Below are positions 1,276 through 22,329 of a stretch of 40,021 bases of DNA, in pieces; the first letter of the stretch is position 1; the number at the start of each line of letters is the position of its first letter. Origin of the DNA: Oscillospiraceae bacterium Zagget6 (GTDB lineage: Bacteria; Bacillota; Clostridia; Oscillospirales; Oscillospiraceae); assembly GCA_001941075.1 (NCBI GenBank), contig MSHH01000030.1:1-40021 (forward strand), written 5' to 3'. The position numbers and the translations under genes are program-made. The notes under the pieces are model-generated. The model did not search any database, was not told where the DNA came from, and saw only the letters and a program-made list of their open reading frames with translations.

Positions 1276-1293
1276 CTGTCATTTCCTGAATGT

Positions 1294-1331
1294 GGGAGCG
1301 CTGTGGGGCAACGCCTGCGGCGCTCCCGTTT
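1294..1331 (+). terminator. Intrinsic terminator after the nucleotidyltransferase gene
   Basis: GGGAGCGC (1294-1301) pairs with GCGCTCCC (1320-1327), followed by GTTTTC. It starts about 20 bases after the stop codon at 1275. Confidence 0.7.
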
Positions 1332-1371
1332 TCTCCCACGCAGGAACTCCGGGAAAAAGTAAAAATAATTG

Positions 1372-1400
1372 TTGACAAACGAAGGACGAACCAGTATAAT
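1372..1400 (+). promoter_or_regulatory. Consensus promoter of the tRNA operon
   Basis: A perfect TTGACA (1372-1377), a 17-base spacer and a perfect TATAAT (1395-1400), 41 bases before the first tRNA gene. An exact consensus is typical of stable RNA operons and suggests very strong transcription of the whole 1441-2950 array. Confidence 0.9.
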
Positions 1401-1440
1401 ATCCCTTGTTGAGAGCGCGGACGACAGCGGCAACAAGCGA

Positions 1441-1517
1441 GGGAGCATAGCTCAGCTGGCTAGAGCACATGCCTTACAAGCATGGGGTCACAGGTTCGAG
1501 CCCTGTTGTTCCCACCA
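1441..1517 (+). tRNA. tRNA-Val (anticodon TAC)
   Basis: The acceptor stem GGGAGCA pairs with TGTTCCC; the anticodon loop CTTACAA contains TAC; the T arm holds GGTTCGAGCC; CCA is encoded at 1515-1517. All arms fold normally in 77 bases. It is the first gene behind the consensus promoter at 1372-1400. Confidence 0.95.
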
Positions 1518-1535
1518 TCTCCTTTTTCTTTTTGT

Positions 1536-1612
1536 GGCCCGGTAGTTCAGTTGGTTAGAACGCCAGCCTGTCACGCTGGAGGTCGACGGTTCGAGCCCGT
1601 TCCGGGTCGCCA
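1536..1612 (+). tRNA. tRNA-Asp (anticodon GTC)
   Basis: The acceptor stem GGCCCGG pairs with CCGGGTC, the anticodon loop CTGTCAC carries GTC, the T arm is canonical, and CCA is encoded at 1610-1612. It is separated from tRNA-Val by 18 bases. Confidence 0.95.
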
Positions 1613-1631
1613 CTTTTTTGCCTTTCTCAAC

Positions 1632-1707
1632 GCCTCTGTAGCTCAGTTGGTAGAGCAGGGGACTGAAAATCCCCGTGTCATTGGTTCGATTCCGATCGGA
1701 GGCACCA
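1632..1707 (+). tRNA. tRNA-Phe (anticodon GAA), copy 1
   Basis: The acceptor stem GCCTCTG pairs with CGGAGGC, the anticodon loop CTGAAAA carries GAA, and CCA is encoded at 1705-1707. It is identical to the second copy at 2276-2351, and in both places a tRNA-Gly gene follows within three or four bases, so the Phe-Gly pair is a duplicated cassette. Confidence 0.95.
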
Positions 1708-1710
1708 TTT

Positions 1711-1786
1711 GCGGGAGTAGCTCATCTGGTAGAGCGCCACCTTGCCAAGGTGGAGGTAGCGAGTTCGAGCCTCGTCTTCCGCTCCA
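1711..1786 (+). tRNA. tRNA-Gly (anticodon GCC), copy 1
   Basis: The acceptor stem GCGGGAG pairs with CTTCCGC, the anticodon loop TTGCCAA carries GCC, the T loop is TTCGAGC, and CCA is encoded at 1784-1786. The sequence equals copy 2 at 2356-2431. Pieces of its 3' half recur downstream in both orientations (1787-2144 and 2432-2900). Confidence 0.95.
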
Positions 1787-1967
1787 TTTTAGGGGAACCG
1801 GTAACGTTTGGTTTTCCTCTCACGTCGTTGAGGGGAATTGAACTCGCTGCCTCCACCTAAATTCGCCGTCAGGCGAATTTTGCAATGAGAGGTTCCCGGC
1901 GCCCGGAAAAGCCGCAAGGCTTTTGCGGGACAGGGTAGCGAGTTCCGAGCCTCGTCTCGCCGCTCCA
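1787..1967 (+). repeat. tRNA-Gly-derived structured repeat, unit A
   Basis: A 181-base unit. In order it has a weak hairpin (AGGGGAACC 1791-1799 with GGTTTTCCT 1810-1818), an inverted copy of tRNA-Gly T-arm sequence (1838-1858, 19 of 21 bases complementary to the upstream gene), a hairpin AAATTCGCC/GGCGAATTT (1859-1880), a second hairpin around CCCGGAAAAG, and a direct copy of the tRNA-Gly 3' end with CCA (1933-1967). The inverted and direct tRNA pieces can pair as a closing stem. The direct copy has an extra C in its T loop (GTTCCGAG instead of GTTCGAG), so it is not a working tRNA end. Confidence 0.8.
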
Positions 1968-2144
1968 TTTTAGGGGAACCGGTAACGTTTGGTTTTCCTC
2001 TCACACCGTTGAGGGGAATCGAACTCGCTACCTCCACCTAAATTCGCCGTCAGGCGAATTTTGCAATCGGAGGTACCGGGTACCCGGAAAAGCCTCGCTT
2101 TTCCGGGGCAAGGAAGCGAGTTCCGAGCCTCGTCTTCCGCTCCA
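1968..2144 (+). repeat. tRNA-Gly-derived structured repeat, unit B
   Basis: A 177-base unit with the plan of unit A and nearly identical at its start. Its inverted tRNA-Gly segment at 2019-2039 is an exact 21-base reverse complement of tRNA-Gly. The internal hairpin CCCGGAAAAG...CTTTTCCGGG is intact, and the unit ends in a tRNA-Gly 3' end (2111-2144) that again carries the extra T-loop C. No acceptor 5' strand or anticodon arm is present. Confidence 0.8.
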
Positions 2145-2196
2145 AGCCGCCCCCCTGAACTTCAGCCCAGCTTAAACGGCTCTAACGAAAGCACAT

Positions 2197-2271
2197 GGCG
2201 CCATAGCCAAGTGGTAAGGCACAGGTCTGCAAAACCTCTATTCCCCGGTCCGAATCCGGGTGGCGCCTCCA
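2197..2271 (+). tRNA. tRNA-Cys (anticodon GCA), slightly unusual
   Basis: A perfect seven-pair acceptor stem (GGCGCCA with TGGCGCC), the anticodon loop CTGCAAA with GCA, and CCA at 2269-2271. Two deviations are visible: the T loop reads TCCGAAT, so the nearly invariant T at position 55 is C, and the outermost anticodon-stem pair is C-C. All other arms are normal, so I call it functional with some caution. Confidence 0.85.
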
Positions 2272-2275
2272 ATTT

Positions 2276-2351
2276 GCCTCTGTAGCTCAGTTGGTAGAGC
2301 AGGGGACTGAAAATCCCCGTGTCATTGGTTCGATTCCGATCGGAGGCACCA
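2276..2351 (+). tRNA. tRNA-Phe (anticodon GAA), copy 2
   Basis: Identical over all 76 bases to the copy at 1632-1707, including the encoded CCA. It starts four bases after tRNA-Cys and is followed after four bases by tRNA-Gly copy 2. Confidence 0.95.
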
Positions 2352-2355
2352 TTTT

Positions 2356-2431
2356 GCGGGAGTAGCTCATCTGGTAGAGCGCCACCTTGCCAAGGTGGAG
2401 GTAGCGAGTTCGAGCCTCGTCTTCCGCTCCA
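2356..2431 (+). tRNA. tRNA-Gly (anticodon GCC), copy 2
   Basis: Identical to copy 1 at 1711-1786, with the same stems, GCC anticodon and encoded CCA. As after copy 1, the gene is followed by structured units that carry fragments of its own 3' half. Confidence 0.95.
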
Positions 2432-2614
2432 CAAGAAAGGGATCTGCAACGGCAGGTCCCTTTTCTTTCGTTCGGCAGGGAAATCGAACTCGCTGCCTCC
2501 ACCCAAAATCCGCCGGTAGGCGGATTTTTGCAATCAGAGGTTCCCGGCGCCCGGAAAAGGCGCAAGACTTTTCCGGGACAGGGTAGCGAGTTCCGAGCCT
2601 CGTCTTCCGCTCCA
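2432..2614 (+). repeat. tRNA-Gly-derived structured repeat, unit C
   Basis: A 183-base unit. It begins with a terminator-type hairpin (GAAAGGGATCTGC with GCAGGTCCCTTTTC, 2435-2466). Then come an inverted tRNA-Gly T-arm segment (2484-2504), a hairpin AAATCCGCC/GGCGGATTT with a T tail (2505-2529), the CCCGGAAAAG hairpin, and a direct tRNA-Gly 3' end with CCA (2581-2614, extra T-loop C). Compared with units A and B, one pair of the small hairpin changed from T-A to C-G on both sides. Confidence 0.8.
2435..2466 (+). terminator. Terminator-like hairpin after tRNA-Gly copy 2
   Basis: A 13-pair hairpin with one G-T pair and loop AACG, its 3' arm ending in TTTTCTTTC. It lies directly behind the CCA of tRNA-Gly copy 2 and recurs unchanged at 2799-2830 in unit E. 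Confidence 0.6.
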
Positions 2615-2795
2615 CATTGAAAGGCCCACTGTGTTGGGCCTTTCTCTTTTGTTCGGTGGAAGCAATCGAACTCGATACCTCCACCCAAAATCCGCCGGTA
2701 GGCGGATTTTTGCAATCAGAGGTTCCCGGCGCCCGGAAAAGGCGCAAGACTTTTCCGGGACAGGGTAGCGGGTTCGAGCCTCGTCTTCCGCTCCA
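2615..2795 (+). repeat. tRNA-Gly-derived structured repeat, unit D
   Basis: A 181-base unit with the plan of unit C but a different leading hairpin: GAAAGGCCCA with TTGGGCCTTTC followed by TCTTTT (2619-2650). The inverted tRNA segment is at about 2666-2685, the AAATCCGCC hairpin at 2687-2711, and the direct tRNA-Gly 3' end at 2763-2795. This copy alone lacks the extra T-loop C (GGTTCGAG). The flanks are nearly identical to unit C while the leading terminator differs, so that hairpin has been exchanged as a module. Confidence 0.8.
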
Positions 2796-2900
2796 CAAGA
2801 AAGGGATCTGCAACGGCAGGTCCCTTTTCTTTCGTTCGGCAGGGAAATCGAACTCGCTGCCTCCACCCAAAATCCGCCGGTAGGCGGATTTTTGCAATCA
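2796..2900 (+). repeat. tRNA-Gly-derived structured repeat, unit E (truncated)
   Basis: The last unit repeats the first 105 bases of unit C: the same leading hairpin (2799-2830), the inverted tRNA-Gly segment (2848-2868) and the AAATCCGCC hairpin with its T tail (2869-2893). It then stops, with no second hairpin and no direct tRNA end. Confidence 0.75.
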
Positions 2901-2918
2901 CACATCCACAGACGCAAA

Positions 2919-2954
2919 AACCAGCCACTCCGGGGAGCGACTGGTTCGTTTTTT
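2919..2954. terminator. Bidirectional terminator between the tRNA array and the small minus-strand gene
   Basis: AACCAG (2919-2924) pairs with CTGGTT (2941-2946), with an inner CTCC/GGAG. T runs flank it on both strands (TTTTTT on plus; the A run before 2919 on minus). It can end the tRNA operon and the minus-strand gene at 2995-3237. Confidence 0.7.
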
Positions 2955-2994
2955 GTTGAGCGCCGCCGTTGGCAACATCTCCCATACGCACGAT

Positions 2995-3237
2995 TTATTC
3001 GTCCAGGTAGTTGCCGGTGTCGTAGCTGTTGTACTGCTTGCGGATACGGATGATGATGGACTGGTCGGGCTGGACCTCCTCAGAGACGATGCGGTACTGG
3101 GTGCCGCTACGCTTGAGTTGGGCCTTATAGTTCTCCAGCTCAGTGCGGACATCCCCCGCCGGGTCGTTGGAAAGGGCGGCGTCCCGCACCTGAAAATGGA
3201 TGGTTTGTAACAAACAAGCCTGTTTAATGCGTTTCAT
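2995..3237 (-). CDS. Small hypothetical protein (80 aa)
   Basis: I do not recognise a family. The protein is 80 residues, basic at its N terminus (MKRIKQ), mixed-charge in the middle, and rich in Ile/Arg and Tyr near the end; no signal peptide or membrane segment is evident. The ORF is supported by AGGAGG at the right distance upstream of the ATG at 3237, by a promoter at 3265-3294, and by the terminator at 2919-2954. It is a single transcription unit convergent with the tRNA operon. Confidence 0.65.
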   Translation of the reverse strand: MKRIKQACLLQTIHFQVRDAALSNDPAGDVRTELENYKAQLKRSGTQYRIVSEEVQPDQSIIIRIRKQYNSYDTGNYLDE

Positions 3238-4300: not shown

Positions 4301-4377
4301 TACCCCCGTGGGGTACTTGACAACTACCCCGTGGGGGTATATACTGTTCCCATCCCAAAGGATACCCCCAGAGGGTA
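4301..4377 (+). promoter_or_regulatory. csoR-copA promoter with three CsoR-type operators
   Basis: TTGACA (4317-4322), a 17-base spacer and TATACT (4340-4345) form the promoter. Three near-palindromes of the CsoR operator type TACCCC...GGGGTA are present: 4301-4315 just upstream of -35, 4325-4339 filling the spacer exactly, and 4363-4377 around +18 to +30. A repressor bound to the middle box would cover both promoter elements. CsoR proteins bind G-tract palindromes of this kind and are released by Cu(I). Confidence 0.8.
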
Positions 4378-4405
4378 CCCCAACTGCCGCATAAGGAGGC
4401 GCAAA

Positions 4406-4714
4406 ATGGACAACGATACCTGCAACCACTGCACCCGAAAGACCAAGCACCGGGACGAAGCAGAATACACCGACCTGATTCACCGGCTCAACCGTATCGA
4501 GGGCCAGGTGCGGGGGGTGCGCCGCATGGTGGAGGAGGACTGCTACTGTGTGGACATCCTGACCCAGGTCTCCGCCATCACCGCCGCCCTGAACAGCTTC
4601 AACAAGGTGCTGCTGGGCAACCACATCCGCACCTGCGTGGCCGACGACATCCGGGCGGGTAACGACGAGGTTGTTGATGAGCTGGTGAAAACGTTGCAAA
4701 AGCTGATGAAGTGA
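4406..4714 (+). CDS. csoR: CsoR-type copper-sensing repressor
   Basis: A 102-residue all-helical protein of the CsoR/RcnR family (metal-sensitive transcriptional repressor). HRLNRIEGQVRGVRRMVEED (26-45) is the family core. The Cu(I) ligands are present as Cys48 (in CYCVDIL), His73 and Cys77 (in NHIRTC), the C-H-C set of true copper sensors. The N terminus adds a short CNHC segment of unknown use. AGGAGG lies seven bases before the ATG at 4406. It is preceded by a promoter with three CsoR-type operators, so it should repress itself and the copA gene downstream. Release by Cu(I) is family knowledge. Confidence 0.93.
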   Translation: MDNDTCNHCTRKTKHRDEAEYTDLIHRLNRIEGQVRGVRRMVEEDCYCVDILTQVSAITAALNSFNKVLLGNHIRTCVADDIRAGNDEVVDELVKTLQKLMK

Positions 4715-4717
4715 ATT

Positions 4718-4850
4718 TAGTGGCTAGTATGCAGTGGCTAGTGGCTAGACGGGCTGGCGATTAGCGAAGGGTATTCCGGCAGGGCCTGCTTTTGTCTAGG
4801 CAATGTTGCACACTGTTCTCTTAACCACAATTCTAGCCACTAACCACTAT
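4718..4850. repeat. Heptad-ended repeat element between csoR and copA (TAGTGGC variant)
   Basis: The left arm (4718-4749) is made of 7-base steps around TAGTGGC; the right arm (4832-4850, CTAGCCACTAACCACTA) is its inverse. The 80-base core has no ORF or terminator. It has the same build as the AGCTAAC-type elements elsewhere in the window. I see no promoter in it, so copA is probably transcribed with csoR. Confidence 0.6.
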
Positions 4851-4867
4851 AGAAAGGAACCCACCCT

Positions 4868-7450
4868 ATGAAAACAAAATTTGACGTGACCGGGATGTCC
4901 TGCGCCGCGTGCCAGGCCCACGTCCAGAAGGCGGTGGAAGCCCTGGACGGGGCGGACCAAGTCAACGTAAACCTGCTCTCCGGCAGCATGACGGTGGAAC
5001 TGGACCCCTCCAAGCTGACCGCCGCCCAGGTCTGCCAGGCGGTGGCCCAGGCGGGCTATGGGGCCACCCCCGTGGGGCAGAAGTCCCGCCCCCAGGACGA
5101 CGCCGCCCGGAAAAAAGAGGCCCAGGAGAAGGAGCAGCGCTGGATGAGGATCCGGCTGACGGTCTCCATCATTTTCCTCATCCCCTTGTTTTACCTGTGC
5201 ATGGGGCATATGTTTGGCGCGCCGCTGCCATCCATCCTCAAGGGGGTGGAGAACTCCATGGTCTACTGCCTGGCCCAGCTGTTGCTGGTGCTGCCCATCC
5301 TCTACGTGAACGACAAATACTTCAAAAACGGCTTCACCACCCTGGCCCACCGCGCCCCCAACATGGACTCCCTCATCGCCGTGGGCGCCACCGCCTCGCT
5401 GGTCTACTCCCTCTACGCCATGTTCGTGGTGGCCTGGGCGCTGGGCCACGGGGACATGGCGCTGGCGGAAGAATACCACATGAACCACCTCTATCTGGAG
5501 TCAGTGGGCATGATTTTGACGCTGGTGACGGTGGGCAAGTACCTTGAAACCCGCTCTAAGGGGCAGACCGGCGCAGCCATTGAGAAGCTGATGGACCTGG
5601 CCCCCAAGACCGCCTGTGTCCTCCGGGACGGGGTGGAAGTCACCCTTCCCGTGGAGGAAGTGCAGGTGGGCGACCTGGTGGTGGTGCGCCCCGGCCAGGC
5701 AGTGCCTGTAGACGGCCAGGTGGTAGAGGGCAGCTCCTCCGTGGACGAGAGCGCCCTGACCGGCGAATCCATTCCAGTGGAAAAGTTCCCCGGCGACAAG
5801 GTTTCCGGGGCTACCATCAACAAAAACGGCACCTTTACCCTCCGGGCCACCCGCGTCGGGGAGGACACCACCCTCTCCCAGATCATCCGGCTGGTGGAGG
5901 ACGCCTCCTCCTCCAAGGCCCCCATCGCTAAGCTGGCGGACAAAGTCGCCGGGGTGTTTGTGCCGGTGGTGCTGTGCATCGCGCTGGTGACGTTTATCGT
6001 GTGGATGCTCCTCACCGGCACCGTGACACGGGCCATCAGCGCGGGCGTGGCGGTGCTGGTCATCTCCTGCCCCTGCGCGTTGGGTCTGGCGACCCCCGTG
6101 GCCATCATGGTGGGTACCGGCAAGGGCGCAGAGCTGGGGGTGCTGTTCAAGTCCGCTGAGGCGCTGGAGACGCTGCACAGCATCAACGCCGTGGTGCTGG
6201 ACAAAACCGGCACCATCACCCAGGGCAAACCCCAGGTCACCGACCTGCTGCCCGCCCAGGGCGTCGCCCAAGCCCGGCTGCTGACCCTGGCCGCCAGTCT
6301 GGAGTCCGCCTCGGAGCACCCGCTGGCGGAGGCCATCGTCACCGCCGCCAAAGAGCAGCGCTTGACCCTGCTACCGGTGGAAAACTTTGAGGCCGTCCCC
6401 GGCAAGGGCCTGCGGGCGGAAATCGCGGGTAAAAAATATTCCGCGGGCAACCTGCGGCTGATGGAGGAATCCGGCGTGGCCATTCCCCCAGAGGTGGCCG
6501 ATCAACTGGCCGACCAGGGCAAGACCCCCCTGTTCTTCGCGGAGGAAACCCACCTGCTGGGCCTCATCGCCGTGGCGGACGTGGCGAAGCCCACCAGCCG
6601 GGAGGCCATCGCCGCCTTCCAGGAGATGGGCATTGACGTGGTCATGCTCACCGGCGACAACCGCCGCACCGCCGAAGCCATTGGCCGGGAGCTGGGCGTG
6701 ACCCAGGTGGTGGCGGAGGTTCTGCCCCAGGAGAAGGAGCGGGTCATCTCCGACCTGCAAAAAGAGGGCAAAAAGGTGGCCATGGTGGGCGACGGCATCA
6801 ACGACGCCCCTGCCCTGACCCGGGCCGACGTGGGCCTCGCCATTGGCGCGGGCACCGACGTGGCCATCGAGTCGGCGGACGTGGTGCTCATCCGCTCTGA
6901 CCTGCTGGATGCCGTCACCGCCATGGAGCTGAGCCGGGCCACCATCCGCAACATCAAGCAGGACCTGTTCTGGGCCTTCTGCTACAACTGCATCGGCATC
7001 CCCCTGGCCGCCGGGGTGTTCTACCCCCTGCTGGGCTGGCAGCTGAACCCCATCTTTGGCGCGGCCGCTATGAGCCTCTCCTCCGTCTCGGTGGTGAGCA
7101 ACGCCCTGCGGCTGCGGCTGTTCAAGCCCCGCCACAAGGCCCCCAATCCCGTCCCAACCCCTTCGGAACCGATGGAATCCATGGAGGGTTTGAGTTTAAG
7201 TGCTGAAAGTGCCGATCCTGATGAGAAAGGAGGGAGTTCTATGACGAAAACTCTGACCGTCGAGGGCATGATGTGCGTCCACTGCCAGGCCCGCGTTGAA
7301 AAGGCCCTGGCCGAGGTCCCCGGCGTCACCGCCGCCGTGGTGAACCTGGAGGCCAAGACCGCCACCGTCACCGCCGACGAGACCGTCACCGACGAGGCGC
7401 TGACCGCCGCCGTCACCAACGCGGGCTATGAAGTGAAGTCCGTGGGCTGA
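4868..7450 (+). CDS. copA: Cu(I)-exporting P1B-type ATPase with C-terminal CopZ-like domain
   Basis: An 860-residue membrane pump that exports Cu(I) using ATP. In order: an N-terminal heavy-metal-binding domain with GMSCAAC (9-15); six to eight membrane helices from about residue 95; the actuator motif TGES near 298; the transmembrane metal site CPC near 400-402 in [11 protein letters not shown]; the phosphorylated Asp of DKTGTIT near 445; [17 protein letters not shown] near 641; then helices to about 755. After a 35-residue linker a second metal-binding domain begins at Met792 (GMMCVHC). The CPC motif and the CsoR next door indicate copper. AAAGGA precedes the ATG. The usual layout has CopZ as a separate gene; here it is in frame, with its own ribosome binding site (see 7241-7450). 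Confidence 0.95.
7241..7450 (+). CDS. copZ: CopZ-like copper chaperone made from an internal start in copA
   Basis: The last 69 codons of copA form a complete heavy-metal-associated domain (ferredoxin-like fold) starting at an internal ATG. The Cu(I) motif is GMMCVHC (residues 9-15) and the length is that of free CopZ. AAAGGAGGG at 7226-7234 ends six bases before this ATG, as strong as any gene start in the window. I infer that both a fused and a free form are made. E. coli copA also yields a free chaperone, but by ribosomal frameshifting. An alternative is a recent fusion that merely kept its old start site. Confidence 0.6.
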
Positions 7451-7687: not shown

Positions 7688-8126
7688 GTGTTTTCTTACC
7701 TCTAAGGGATTGATACGTGAATTCATTCGGGACATGATCAGCAAGGTTGTTTTCGGTGTTTTCTTACCTCTAAGGGATTGATACTCAATCGCAGTCTGAT
7801 TCTGGATAGCCTGCGTTTCGGCTTCCTGGTGTTTTCTTACCTCTAAGGGATTGATACGTTGAAGACCAAGTGAAGTCTTTCTTAACCATGGCGTCAAGTG
7901 TTTTCTTACCTCTAAGGGATTGATACTAAATCATCATTTTGTCCTAGGTTTCGACGAACTCTGCCAGGTCTTCCGTGTTTCCTTACCTCTAAGGGATTGA
8001 TACATGCTTCAATTATCGTCGTTCTCTCCTCCAACGCTATTGTGTTTTCTTACCTCTAAGGGATTGATACCGCTTTTTGTACTCATCTTCTGCAACTTCA
8101 ACAACGAGTGTTTTCTTACCTCTAAG
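7688..8126 (+). CRISPR. Short CRISPR array: six full repeats, one truncated repeat, six spacers
   Basis: The 29-base repeat starts GTGTTTTCTTACC and ends AAGGGATTGATAC. Copies are at 7688-7716, 7756-7784, 7829-7857, 7898-7926, 7975-8003 (one T-to-C change), 8042-8070, and a truncated 19-base copy at 8108-8126. The spacers are all different and 39, 44, 40, 48, 38 and 37 bases long. The AT-rich leader with promoter on the left and the broken repeat on the right fix the orientation. The repeat end GGGATTGATAC resembles the GGGATTGAAAC ending of many type I-B and type III arrays. No cas gene is found between copA and birA or anywhere in the window. Spacer lengths vary more than usual for type I. 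Confidence 0.93.
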
Positions 8127-8143
8127 AAAACCCCGCCACAACA

Positions 8144-19997: not shown

Positions 19998-22329
19998 CAA
20001 TTTCCTGTCCTGTGTAGTCGGCCACGGCGCTGTCGGCGAAGTTCACCGTAATGACGCTGCCCCGCTCCACCTCCGTTCCGGCGGCGGTGCTCTGGCTGTA
20101 GGCCAGCGTGGTGCTGTTGTAGTAGCTGGAGGAGCCGGTGGCCGTCATGTAGAGGTCCAGCTCGCTCAGCGCCTCCTTTGCCTGGTCCACCGTCATGCCG
20201 GTCAGGTCCGGGACGGTGACGGTGTCATCGGGGGCCTCCTCCCCCATATAGAGGATGACCTCGCTGCCGCTGGGCAGGACTGACCCGGAGGCGGGGCACT
20301 GGTCGGTGACGGTCTCCCCGTCGCCCACCACCCGATAGGTCAGGTCCTTGGCCTCCAGCGCCTCCGCCGCCTCGCTCTCGCTCAGCCCCGCCAGGGCGGG
20401 CATGGAGACGCTGACGCCGGAGAGGTCGTCGTCGGTGTACTGCTTTTCGTAACCCATATAGTCCAGAATGTCCGCGATGAGCTGCCCCGCCACCGGCGCG
20501 GCCATGTTGCCGCCGGAGATGTAATAGCCGGTGGTGGAGTAGTTGCTGCCCGCCGCGTCCACCTTGGGGGAGTCGAAGGCCACCAGCACGATGATCTCCG
20601 GGTCGTCCGCCGGGGCGAAGCCCATAAAGGAGACGATGTACTCGTCGTCCACCAGGGTCTGGGAGGTGCCGGTCTTGCCGCCGATGCGGTAGCCGGACAT
20701 ATAGGCGTTGCGCCCGGTGAAGCTGGTGACAACTCCCTCCAGGATGGTGGCGCAGCGCTGAGAGGTCTCCTCGCTGATGACCTGGCGGACAGGGGTAGTG
20801 TCCGCCTCATAGGTGGTGTCGCCGTCGGCATCCACGATGCTCTGCACCACATGGGGGGTGTAGAGATAGCCGCCGTTGACTACCGCGTTGATGGCGGTGA
20901 TGAGGCTGATGGGGGTGACGGTGAACCGCTGCCCGAAGGAGGCGGTGGCCAGCTCGGTGATGCCGAAGTTCTCCAGGCTCCAGATGACGTTGGCGCTCTC
21001 GCCGGGCAGGTCGATGCCGGTGGAGTCCATCAGGCCGAACCGCTCCATGTAGGAGTAGAAGGTCTCCGCGCCCAGGCTTTGGCCGATGGAGATAAAGGCG
21101 GGGTTGCAGGAGTTGCCCACCGCCTCCGCCAGGGTCTGGAGGCCGTGGCCGGAGCGGTTGGAGCAGCGGATGGTGTAGTTGGAGACGGTGACGGAGCCAG
21201 AGCAGTTGAAGGTGGTGCTCTCGCTGACGGTCCCCTCCTGCAACGCGGCGGCCAGCACCAGCGACTTGAAGGTGGACCCCGGCTCATAGGTGTCGTTCAG
21301 CGCCTTGTTGCGCCACATCTCGTTCAGCGCCTCCGACTCGGTGATGGCCCCGGACTCCACTTCCTCCTGAAGGACGCTGTCAATGATGGTGCTGTAGTTG
21401 TTCAGGTCGTAGGTGGGACTGCTGGCCATGCCCAAAATCGCGCCGCTGTCGCAGTCCATGACGATGATAAAGCCGCCGTTCTGGGCGTCGTACTTCTCCA
21501 CGCCGTCCGCCAGCGCGTCCTCGCACAGCTTCTGGATTTCAGTGGACAGGGTCAGGGTGACGGTGCTGCCGCTCTCTGCGTCGTAATACTCCTGGTAGAA
21601 GTTCAGCAGGTCGGTGCCGCTGGCGTTCTGGGCTGTGACCACCAGGCCGGAGGTGCCGGACAGCTCGTCGTCCAGCTCGGCCTCAATGCCGTAAGCGCCG
21701 CCGTTGTCGTTGGTGAAGCCGATGATCTGGGCGGCCAGGGTGGAGTAGGGGTAGTACCGCTTGGAGTTGGGGGTCAGGTAGACGCAGCCGGAGAGGTCAT
21801 ATTCGTCCATAAACGCCCGTACCTCCGCCTCAGTGGTGGCGTCCAGCTTGGTGGCGATTTTTTTGTACTGGCTGTTGGTGTCCTGGCACTTCTCCCGGAT
21901 AGTGTCCGCGTCCACGCCGTCCAAAATCTCCGCCAGGCCGGTGGCGATGGTCTCCACCACGTCCAGCACCTCGCCGGGGTCCTCGCCCTTTTCGCGGGCG
22001 GTCTCTGCGGCGGCGTCCAGCTCCTGCTGTTTGTCGTTGATGGCCTTGGGGGACAAAATCACGTCGTAGGCGCTGGCGCTGATGGCCAGCACATTGCCCT
22101 CGGCGTCGTAGATGGCCCCCCGCTGAGCGGAGACGGACAGCTCGCTGGTCTGCTGCTGCACCGCCTTCTGCTCGATCTCGTCGTGGCGGCTGATCTGCCA
22201 GTACCACAGCTTGTAGACGATGGGGAGGAACATGACCACGCCGCAGATGACCAGCAGGAACACCGTCCTGCGGAAAATGCGCCGGTTGGCCTGGCGGCTG
22301 CTGCTCTTTTTCCGCTTTTGCCTGTTCAT
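19990..22329 (-). CDS. spoVD: Class B penicillin-binding protein, SpoVD/PBP2 type, with two PASTA domains
   Basis: A 779-residue D,D-transpeptidase that crosslinks peptidoglycan outside the membrane. A basic cytoplasmic start and one membrane helix (about 22-42), the PBP dimer domain (about 60-250), then the transpeptidase domain with all three motifs: STFK (Ser352), SCN (407-409) and KTGTS (552-556). Two PASTA domains follow (about 640-697 and 703-766), ending in an acidic tail. PASTA-bearing class B PBPs next to mraY in spore formers are called SpoVD (spore cortex) or PBP2B/FtsI (division). Only one is present here, so it may serve vegetative division; I cannot separate the two by sequence. 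Confidence 0.92.
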   Translation of the reverse strand: MNRQKRKKSSSRQANRRIFRRTVFLLVICGVVMFLPIVYKLWYWQISRHDEIEQKAVQQQTSELSVSAQRGAIYDAEGNVLAISASAYDVILSPKAINDKQQELDAAAETAREKGEDPGEVLDVVETIATGLAEILDGVDADTIREKCQDTNSQYKKIATKLDATTEAEVRAFMDEYDLSGCVYLTPNSKRYYPYSTLAAQIIGFTNDNGGAYGIEAELDDELSGTSGLVVTAQNASGTDLLNFYQEYYDAESGSTVTLTLSTEIQKLCEDALADGVEKYDAQNGGFIIVMDCDSGAILGMASSPTYDLNNYSTIIDSVLQEEVESGAITESEALNEMWRNKALNDTYEPGSTFKSLVLAAALQEGTVSESTTFNCSGSVTVSNYTIRCSNRSGHGLQTLAEAVGNSCNPAFISIGQSLGAETFYSYMERFGLMDSTGIDLPGESANVIWSLENFGITELATASFGQRFTVTPISLITAINAVVNGGYLYTPHVVQSIVDADGDTTYEADTTPVRQVISEETSQRCATILEGVVTSFTGRNAYMSGYRIGGKTGTSQTLVDDEYIVSFMGFAPADDPEIIVLVAFDSPKVDAAGSNYSTTGYYISGGNMAAPVAGQLIADILDYMGYEKQYTDDDLSGVSVSMPALAGLSESEAAEALEAKDLTYRVVGDGETVTDQCPASGSVLPSGSEVILYMGEEAPDDTVTVPDLTGMTVDQAKEALSELDLYMTATGSSSYYNSTTLAYSQSTAAGTEVERGSVITVNFADSAVADYTGQEIDD

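Follow-up and report, generated by a model that had tools for sequence, protein, structure and literature searches.

tRNA-linked repeats (TLRs) were first described in Escherichia coli in 1978 (Egan & Landy, 1978; Rudd, 1999; both as cited in PMC8144298). As presented in that source, the species has 22 TLRs at ten loci, 18–19 bp of whose 3′ end are identical to the upstream tRNA or rRNA; the class is defined by this copied end and is without an agreed function, a claim made for rtT in 1991 was withdrawn in 1994, and the RNAs of the E. coli rr repeats undergo processing and interact with Hfq and CsrA (PMC8144298). RtT is present in Pasteurellaceae, and northern blots of a bacterium other than E. 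coli showed signals for its RtT homologues (PMC4986893). Our literature searches on such repeats outside E. coli turned up no report of them from Clostridia, although this does not prove that none exists. Here we analyzed a stretch of 40,021 nt (the window) from Oscillospiraceae bacterium Zagget6 (GCA_001941075.1, contig MSHH01000030.1, positions 1–40,021, forward strand; the assembly has 86 contigs and is 76% complete), in which tandem units made of hairpins and tRNA fragments follow two tRNA-Gly genes. We consider it reasonably probable that these arrays are TLRs of Clostridia, built on a plan like that of the E. coli tyrT repeats with a different core, which spread and take their arms from the neighboring tRNA. 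Below, L and G numbers are our labels for loci and genomes.

The order of the operon is Val-Asp-Phe-Gly, units A and B, Cys-Phe-Gly, and units C and D with a partial unit E (Table 1). The original prediction, made from the letters of the window, was of an array of ~180-bp units behind the tRNA-Gly genes, and the array is real: full units measure 177–183 bp, internal direct repeats of 112–137 nt recur with a period of 181–182 bp, and units follow both tRNA-Gly genes of the window as well as a third tRNA-Gly gene of the genome, on contig C75, where two full units precede a partial one. Of the three loci in this genome, one therefore has two copies, and the others have two plus a partial each. 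The plan of a unit consists of a leading hairpin, an antisense tRNA-Gly 3′ half (the inverted arm, from the anticodon stem to the T-loop), hairpin 1 (a G+C stem between an A-run and a T-run), hairpin 2 (of the type CCCGGAAAAG...CTTTTCCGGG), and a direct tRNA 3′ end with CCA (the direct arm). The inverted arm matches tRNA-Gly at 21 of 21 positions in B, as predicted, at 19 of 20 in C, D, and E, and at 18 of 19 (95%) in A. A direct arm with CCA had been expected in each unit; B, C, and D have it, and their last 21 bases are identical to tRNA-Gly, which is not so in A, with its altered acceptor strand, or in E, which stops after hairpin 1 at the end of the array and has no direct arm. The copied T-loop of A, B, and C carries an inserted C and, with the changed acceptor strand of A, this means that these three are not intact tRNA ends.

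The sequence features given for TLRs in PMC8144298 (a site in a tRNA or rRNA operon 3′ of the RNA gene, an identical end of 18–19 bp, one to five copies) are found in the window units and, judged on their sequence, B, C, and D are TLR members by definition, A being a damaged member and E a truncated one. The predicted option of a tRNA-derived repetitive element is thereby supported, and tRNA-linked repeats is the name of its class (PMC8144298). Like the clostridial units, the E. coli TLRs (the 178-bp tyrT/tyrV repeats, RtT RNA, and rrA/rrB/rrF) lie behind a tRNA or 5S gene, carry at their end the copied 3′ end of the gene in question, with CCA where it is a tRNA, occur in tandem, and have a hairpin-rich core; in the tyrT repeats, the parts stand in the same order as in the window, with a period of 178 bp. 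In E. coli K-12, rttR starts 8 nt after tRNA-Tyr, its annotated end is the repeated CCA, and cores at different tRNAs share sequence. The 11 E. coli stretches that we examined had a partial 3′ copy at 11 of 40 tRNA genes; a looser rule gave 12 units, and the comparison of inverted pieces used 11. The longest inverted piece of the local tRNA beat all swapped tRNAs in four of these 11 (Tyr, 10 bases; argV, 8; two Lys, 13), and the tyr, argV, lysV, and lysQ units resemble the clostridial ones in this too. Some E. coli repeats thus have a clear inverted arm, and in others it is absent or short; the Introduction and the first part of the Discussion of PMC8144298 make no mention of it. The two sets also differ in their arms: the Gly units have a direct arm of 32–34 nt with the core in the variable loop, whereas the E. 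coli copy has 18–19 nt from the T-loop, and the Gly inverted arm (19–21 nt) is longer and reaches the anticodon stem. A further likeness lies in the dual terminators of E. coli rrn operons (T1-rrB-T2), where a small structured segment stands between two terminators behind a stable-RNA gene (PMC8144298); here, the host gene is tRNA-Gly and several units are in tandem. Membership of the RtT sequence family was ruled out, as the RtT covariance model (Rfam RF00391) had no match above the gathering threshold in the genome of the window and matched its E. coli positive control. At a relaxed threshold, Rfam returned only tRNAs and sub-threshold matches.

A generic script recovered 59 units at 44 of 263 tRNA neighborhoods, a fraction that is uninformative on frequency because the loci were picked for holding units; the reversed control gave 0 of 263. 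The direct arm was identical to the local tRNA over 22 bases in 43 of the 59 units and to the other 11 tRNA ends in none of 649 comparisons. Outside the genus-type acceptor, the figures were 22/26 for the local tRNA versus 0/234 for others. The Phe, Val, Asp, and Cys genes of those stretches had no units (0/34, 0/31, 0/30, and 0/25, respectively). The inverted arm also tends to match the local tRNA, with 2.97 mismatches of 21 versus 5.83 to other tRNAs, and it extends past the direct copy into the anticodon stem, where the unit offers it no pairing partner. Behind a tRNA-Thr with GGATG (L155), it reads CATCC; behind tRNA-Gly(CCC) with AAGCTG (L131, L318), CAGCTT; behind a Gly tRNA with GGTCG (L151), CGACC in both tandem units; and in L156, a changed T-stem is accompanied by CCCGC. 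Since the inverted arm follows the local tRNA in the anticodon stem, it would be either templated on the tRNA gene or kept complementary to it. Its complementarity thus appears to be kept and, among Gly variants, the change that is followed is one base. At the right ends of the arrays in L019, L020, and L021, another sequence, TCGTCGGAGTGGACTCCA..., is shared directly after the copy of the tRNA end.

The same complementarity invites a regulatory interpretation, and a tRNA-Gly-pairing RNA was one option of the original prediction. On this reading, an RNA made on read-through would bind the 3′ half of tRNA-Gly through its antisense arm, in cis or in trans, and lower the amount of functional tRNA-Gly, with the direct arm masking it. 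The 19–21 nt involved tend to follow the local tRNA even outside the stem of the unit, and the minimum-energy fold of a read-through precursor pairs the arm with the tRNA. This predicted pairing is nevertheless weak evidence, because the program also misses the cloverleaf for the unmodified tRNA alone. Moreover, the units are patchy (23/32 genus genomes; 32/200 family genomes, 24 below E 1e-5), the length and place of the arm vary at other tRNAs, which does not suggest one binding site, and the operon-end arm sits behind a terminator-like hairpin. We regard a tRNA-Gly-pairing regulator as improbable.

Units also occur behind other tRNAs. A weak match led to a unit behind tRNA-Thr(GGT) (L155) with the same core type as the Gly units. 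A strict pattern of this Thr type recovered only the known genome (1/300) and was judged too strict, and the matches of a DNA search that started from the Thr unit were mainly tRNA-Thr genes; signals were present at three of 24 tRNA-Thr(GGT) neighborhoods, namely the known unit, one with a different core, and a remnant. A generic scan, which counted either a partial direct copy or an inverted piece of 12 bases or more, gave signals at 22 of 164 tRNA genes in six genomes and at 13 anticodons (three of Thr, two each of Gly, Glu, and Arg, and one each of Ile, Met, Lys, and Val); 12 of the 22 genes had both arms at the thresholds used. Swapped tRNAs yielded four direct and three inverted signals in 790 trials, and reversed sequence 0/164. 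In several of these units (Arg, Glu, Met, Val, Lys), the T-loop of the copied end holds the core, which is also the arrangement in E. coli, and in the Gly(GCC) units the core lies in the variable loop. In a genome of 0.9 Mb from another order (L317; G494 C10, ~204300–204700), a tRNA-Met is followed by three 116-bp units in tandem, each with, by eye, an inverted arm, a direct arm, and a terminator-like hairpin.

In one genome (G035), a near-identical core of 66–67 bp is found at Arg(CCG), Glu(TTC), and Val(CAC), with 62/66, 61/67, and 59/67 identical columns. The direct arms of these units have no mismatch to their own tRNA and 6 to 10 to the others, and for the inverted arms the mismatches to their own tRNA number 0 (Arg), 0 (Glu), and 3 (Val), against 1 to 5 to the others. 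These units bear on the view that the arrays are functionless by-products of replication, that is, short tandem inversion duplications that would arise by template switching at the T-arm and terminator hairpins and would later be filled with a hairpin repeat. The order of tRNA end, terminator, inverted end, direct end, and terminator would be expected of an inversion duplication, and the last units are truncated and the array ends variable. Still, new local events alone would not account for the G035 core at three tRNAs or for the Gly core found across the order, both of which require the core to have spread or descended, and we think that such an origin is unlikely. Somewhat less doubtful to us, and offered tentatively, is a class of miniature mobile hairpin elements that would build an inverted and a direct arm from any tRNA beside which they land. 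The E. coli TLRs and the clostridial units would then be branches of one system, with copying by template switching, or RNA-guided or reverse-transcribed.

The full units A–D fold 3.0 to 6.9 standard deviations below dinucleotide shuffles. The inverted and direct parts had been expected to close a stem around two hairpins, and they form one in the minimum-energy fold of three of the four full units, unit B being the exception. The paired T-A to C-G change claimed for the small hairpin (hairpin 1) is present: AAATTCGCC/GGCGAATTT in A and B is replaced by AAAATCCGCC/GGCGGATTTT in C, D, and E. Pairs were counted in an alignment of 56 matches (51 distinct) from 35 loci at E values up to 1e-8; a looser set of 85 matches from 54 loci (E up to 1e-4) stayed outside these counts. 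Double changes were seen in 9 of 9 pairs of hairpin 1 and in 9 of 10 of hairpin 2, and 94.8% of paired cells were complementary versus 82.8% in shuffles, which leave the effect of relatedness in place. For the two hairpins, then, changes in homologues respect the pairing and the fold is kept, as had been proposed.

Hairpins kept in this way might belong to a trans-acting small RNA that is released from tRNA operons and binds a protein or an mRNA, by analogy with the proposal for E. coli rrA, rrB, and rrF with CsrA. The paired changes that preserve hairpins 1 and 2 are in line with this, as are the processing of the rr repeats and their interaction with Hfq and CsrA (PMC8144298). Hairpin 1, on the other hand, is missing in L118–L120, and hairpin 2 has free-standing relatives, so that its paired changes may reflect a repeat element and not the tRNA-linked unit. 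The free-standing hairpin of the order type (that of the Gly units), GGGGTCCCCGC...GCGGGGTG, was found by exact pattern in 7 of 197 genomes of the order, dispersed or in tandem, and 21 inspected loci of the hairpin-2 type had a same-strand upstream tRNA within the stretches in only two cases (198 and 307 nt away). We consider a trans-acting product rather unlikely; a dedicated role of any kind, antisense or trans-acting, is at most a possibility.

The dispersed and sometimes tandem occurrence of GGGGTCCCCGC...GCGGGGTG in other genomes of the order recalls hairpin repeats of the REP, BIME, and MITE kinds; the difference is that in the genome of the window hairpin 2 occurs only inside tRNA-linked arrays (exact pattern, 76%-complete assembly). 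Tandem hairpins GGGGTCCCCGC...TTTGTGGGGTG with no upstream tRNA within the stretches were seen in other genomes of the order (L202, L205, L207, L209) and form a REP-like family that resembles hairpin 2 of the tRNA-linked units of the order. In L175 (G178 C12, ~21850–22030), two opposed hairpin-2-like elements without tRNA arms flank an A-run/T-run hairpin that resembles hairpin 1.

Relatives of the Gly units occur across the order, mostly behind tRNA-Gly(GCC). The original prediction had proposed a covariance-model search, and a first model was built from 11 units out of 35 distinct ones, those containing N or a full tRNA having been set aside. It matched 23 of 32 genus genomes and, under strict filters, 32 of 295 genomes of the order at E up to 0.01 (16 below 1e-5). 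A second model, widened with members from the order, matched 32 of 200 family genomes at E up to 0.001; 24 lay below 1e-5, and Thr-type units accounted for two of the 24. In the class, the widened model matched 8 of 391 genomes, three clearly (the genome of the window and two of the order) and five weakly. Four of the five weak matches (L130, L132–L134) coincide with the tRNA-Gly gene itself and were rejected as units, and the fifth (L131) led to the Gly(CCC) unit, in another order. Among 20 places inspected closely, at least 17 of them weak, 13 coincide with a tRNA-Gly gene, and the remainder are Gly units, decayed units, and free-standing hairpins. A complete tRNA-Gly(GCC) lies within the stretch at 11 of the 13 order loci L117–L129. 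An exact pattern found 23 stretches in a named genome collection, all titled uncultured Clostridiales. In six related genomes (L037–L042), the examined locus has tRNA-Gly and a simple hairpin and, by eye, no unit.

The leading hairpin had been described as swapped between units. Its types do differ, with one type in A and B and the succession T1-T2-T1 in C, D, and E, although the hairpin is most likely the own terminator of the tRNA gene, copied along with the unit and outside the core. The leading hairpins of C, D, and E pass a terminator pattern that those of A and B fail; this pattern alone is weak and rests on position more than on count, because the three sites found are no more than the 2.6 (SD 1.9) expected in shuffles. 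Among 44 distinct tRNA-Gly loci with units, counted without a shuffle control, a terminator-like leading hairpin is present at 25 of 30 operon-end loci versus 1 of 14 mid-operon loci. The operon-end loci that miss it number five: four (L126, L151, L156, L168) look terminator-like by eye, and at L047 another tRNA gene follows 573 nt downstream. In most arrays, identical hairpins follow the tRNA and the unit, and the hairpin varies between species. T2 of unit D is unlike T1 and resembles the hairpin at the C75 locus, which suggests exchange between tRNA-Gly loci.

The perfect promoter of the original prediction, with 12 of 12 bases at 1372–1400, was the sole one found within 1280–3000, where 0.4 would be expected. 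Since the scan gave no promoter-like site directly before the genes for tRNA-Cys, -Phe, and -Gly, the mid-operon units A and B probably lie within transcribed DNA; transcription beyond the terminators is putative.

Table 1. tRNA genes, promoter-like site, and repeat units at the beginning of the window
Feature	Position	Strand	Remarks
Promoter-like site TTGACA-17-TATAAT	1372..1400	+	12/12 matches; ahead of tRNA operon
tRNA-Val(TAC)	1441..1517	+	
tRNA-Asp(GTC)	1536..1612	+	
tRNA-Phe(GAA)	1632..1707	+	
tRNA-Gly(GCC)	1711..1786	+	Putative template for arms of units A and B
Unit A, mid-operon	1787..1967	+	Leading hairpin 1791–1820, without T-run; inverted arm 1840–1858; hairpin 1 1859–1880; hairpin 2 1902–1929; direct arm 1934–1967, acceptor strand altered
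Unit B, mid-operon	1968..2144	+	Inverted arm 2019–2039, antisense to tRNA-Gly; hairpin 1 2040–2061; hairpin 2 2083–2107; direct arm 2112–2144
tRNA-Cys(GCA)	2197..2271	+	3′ of units A and B, with no intervening promoter-like site in the scan
tRNA-Phe(GAA), second copy	2276..2351	+	
tRNA-Gly(GCC), second copy	2356..2431	+	Putative template for arms of units C–E
Unit C	2432..2614	+	Terminator-like T1 2435–2464; inverted arm 2484–2503; hairpin 1 2505–2528; hairpin 2 2550–2577; direct arm 2582–2614
Unit D	2615..2795	+	Terminator-like T2 2619–2644; inverted arm 2666–2685; hairpin 1 2687–2710; hairpin 2 2732–2759; direct arm 2764–2795
Partial unit E	2796..2900	+	Terminator-like T1 2799–2828; inverted arm 2848–2867; hairpin 1 2869–2892

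Attachment sites of elements that integrate into tRNA genes carry a partial copy of the tRNA 3′ end. The arrays could accordingly be read as stacked attachment-site scars of elements that use the 3′ end of tRNA-Gly, an option named in the original prediction and in keeping with the tRNA 3′-end copy at the end of every unit. The Gly units differ from such sites in being short, in having hairpins and an inverted arm, the latter foreign to such scars, and in having a terminator copied with the unit. No integrase or element body stands next to the tRNA-end copy among the four neighboring downstream open reading frames that were tested, which encode a helix-turn-helix protein, a metal-sensing repressor, a P-type ATPase, and a small product without a family. 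One unit gave no match in phage and plasmid collections, nor did the exact unit pattern in viral contigs, and an origin from any of these was rejected. We therefore did not retain the scars, which we hold to be very improbable. A T-box leader, an intron, and acceptor-stem mimicry were considered from the letters alone and dropped.

An assembly artefact is more improbable still, to the point of being scarcely credible. Such errors might be feared in a genome of 86 contigs that is 76% complete, and many related arrays lie at contig ends. Yet tandem units occur at L151 in G804, a 100%-complete genome of two contigs; a genome that is one contig (L153, G835) has a unit; and E. coli K-12 has repeats. 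Because of the tandem units in L151 and in K-12, such arrays are not assembly artefacts as a class.

Two other features lie 3′ of the array. At 4331–7447, a metal-sensitive repressor (Trns_repr_metal) precedes a heavy-metal P-type ATPase that has two HMA stretches, and the two are likely a copper efflux pair. Seven direct repeats of ~29 bp (GTGTTTTCTTACCTCTAAGGGATTGATAC) at 7688–8142, spaced 66–77 bp apart with differing spacers and a degenerate last copy, look like a small array of clustered regularly interspaced short palindromic repeats (CRISPR).

The explanation that we prefer, TLRs of Clostridia with arms from the neighboring tRNA, would run as follows. A unit is a hairpin-rich core between an inverted (left) and a direct, CCA-ending (right) copy of the tRNA, placed behind the terminator of that tRNA. 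At its birth, either a mobile hairpin core or a switch of replication template between the T-arm and terminator hairpins would set the core beside a tRNA gene and copy the 3′ part of the tRNA in both orientations; alternatively, an enzyme may be the agent. The direct arms would then recombine with the tRNA 3′ end, and this would produce tandem copies, deletions, and equality of sequence. Mid-operon units would be co-transcribed with the tRNAs and operon-end units only upon read-through of T1, and the RNA would fold and be trimmed at the CCA of its tRNA-like end, the position that is also the annotated end of rttR in E. coli. The effect on the cell would most likely be small: a tolerated repeat, of some use as a terminator and in 3′ processing, and not a dedicated regulator.

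A number of observations weigh against this explanation. In 7 of the 11 E. coli units, the inverted piece did not exceed swapped tRNAs. Among the clostridial units, the tracking in L151 is a difference of a single base, and the case of L156 is weakened by the CCCGC variant beside an unchanged tRNA in L033 and L055. The six genomes of the generic scan (that of the window and five others) were all chosen as unit holders, 164 of their 251 tRNA matches were scanned, and 10 of the 22 signals were without both arms at the thresholds used; the inverted arm of the G035 Val copy has its three mismatches in 13 positions. It may also be that one plan is shared by two families, the Gly(GCC) units and the T-loop type found at other tRNAs. 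The covariation alignment was fitted to the model and so leans towards structure, and even so the inverted–direct stem, stressed in the original prediction, is hardly kept among homologues (double changes in 1 of 8 pairs, and in 0 of 5 pairs of its CCTC/GAGG continuation). Free-standing copies of hairpin 2 were not found in the 76%-complete assembly of the window's genome, where the five exact-pattern copies are all inside arrays. Terminator patterns also arise frequently in shuffled sequence, a background against which the leading-hairpin count over the 44 loci was not controlled.

If the arrays are indeed TLRs, their plan in Clostridia, with inverted and direct arms, 13 anticodons, and a shared core, would widen an oddity of E. 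coli into a broader phenomenon. Clostridial structured repeats that could otherwise be mistaken for pseudo-tRNAs or noise would be accounted for, and covariance models and loci in near-complete genomes are now usable for experiments. The finding raises a testable question, which is how a repeat gains arms that match a new tRNA.

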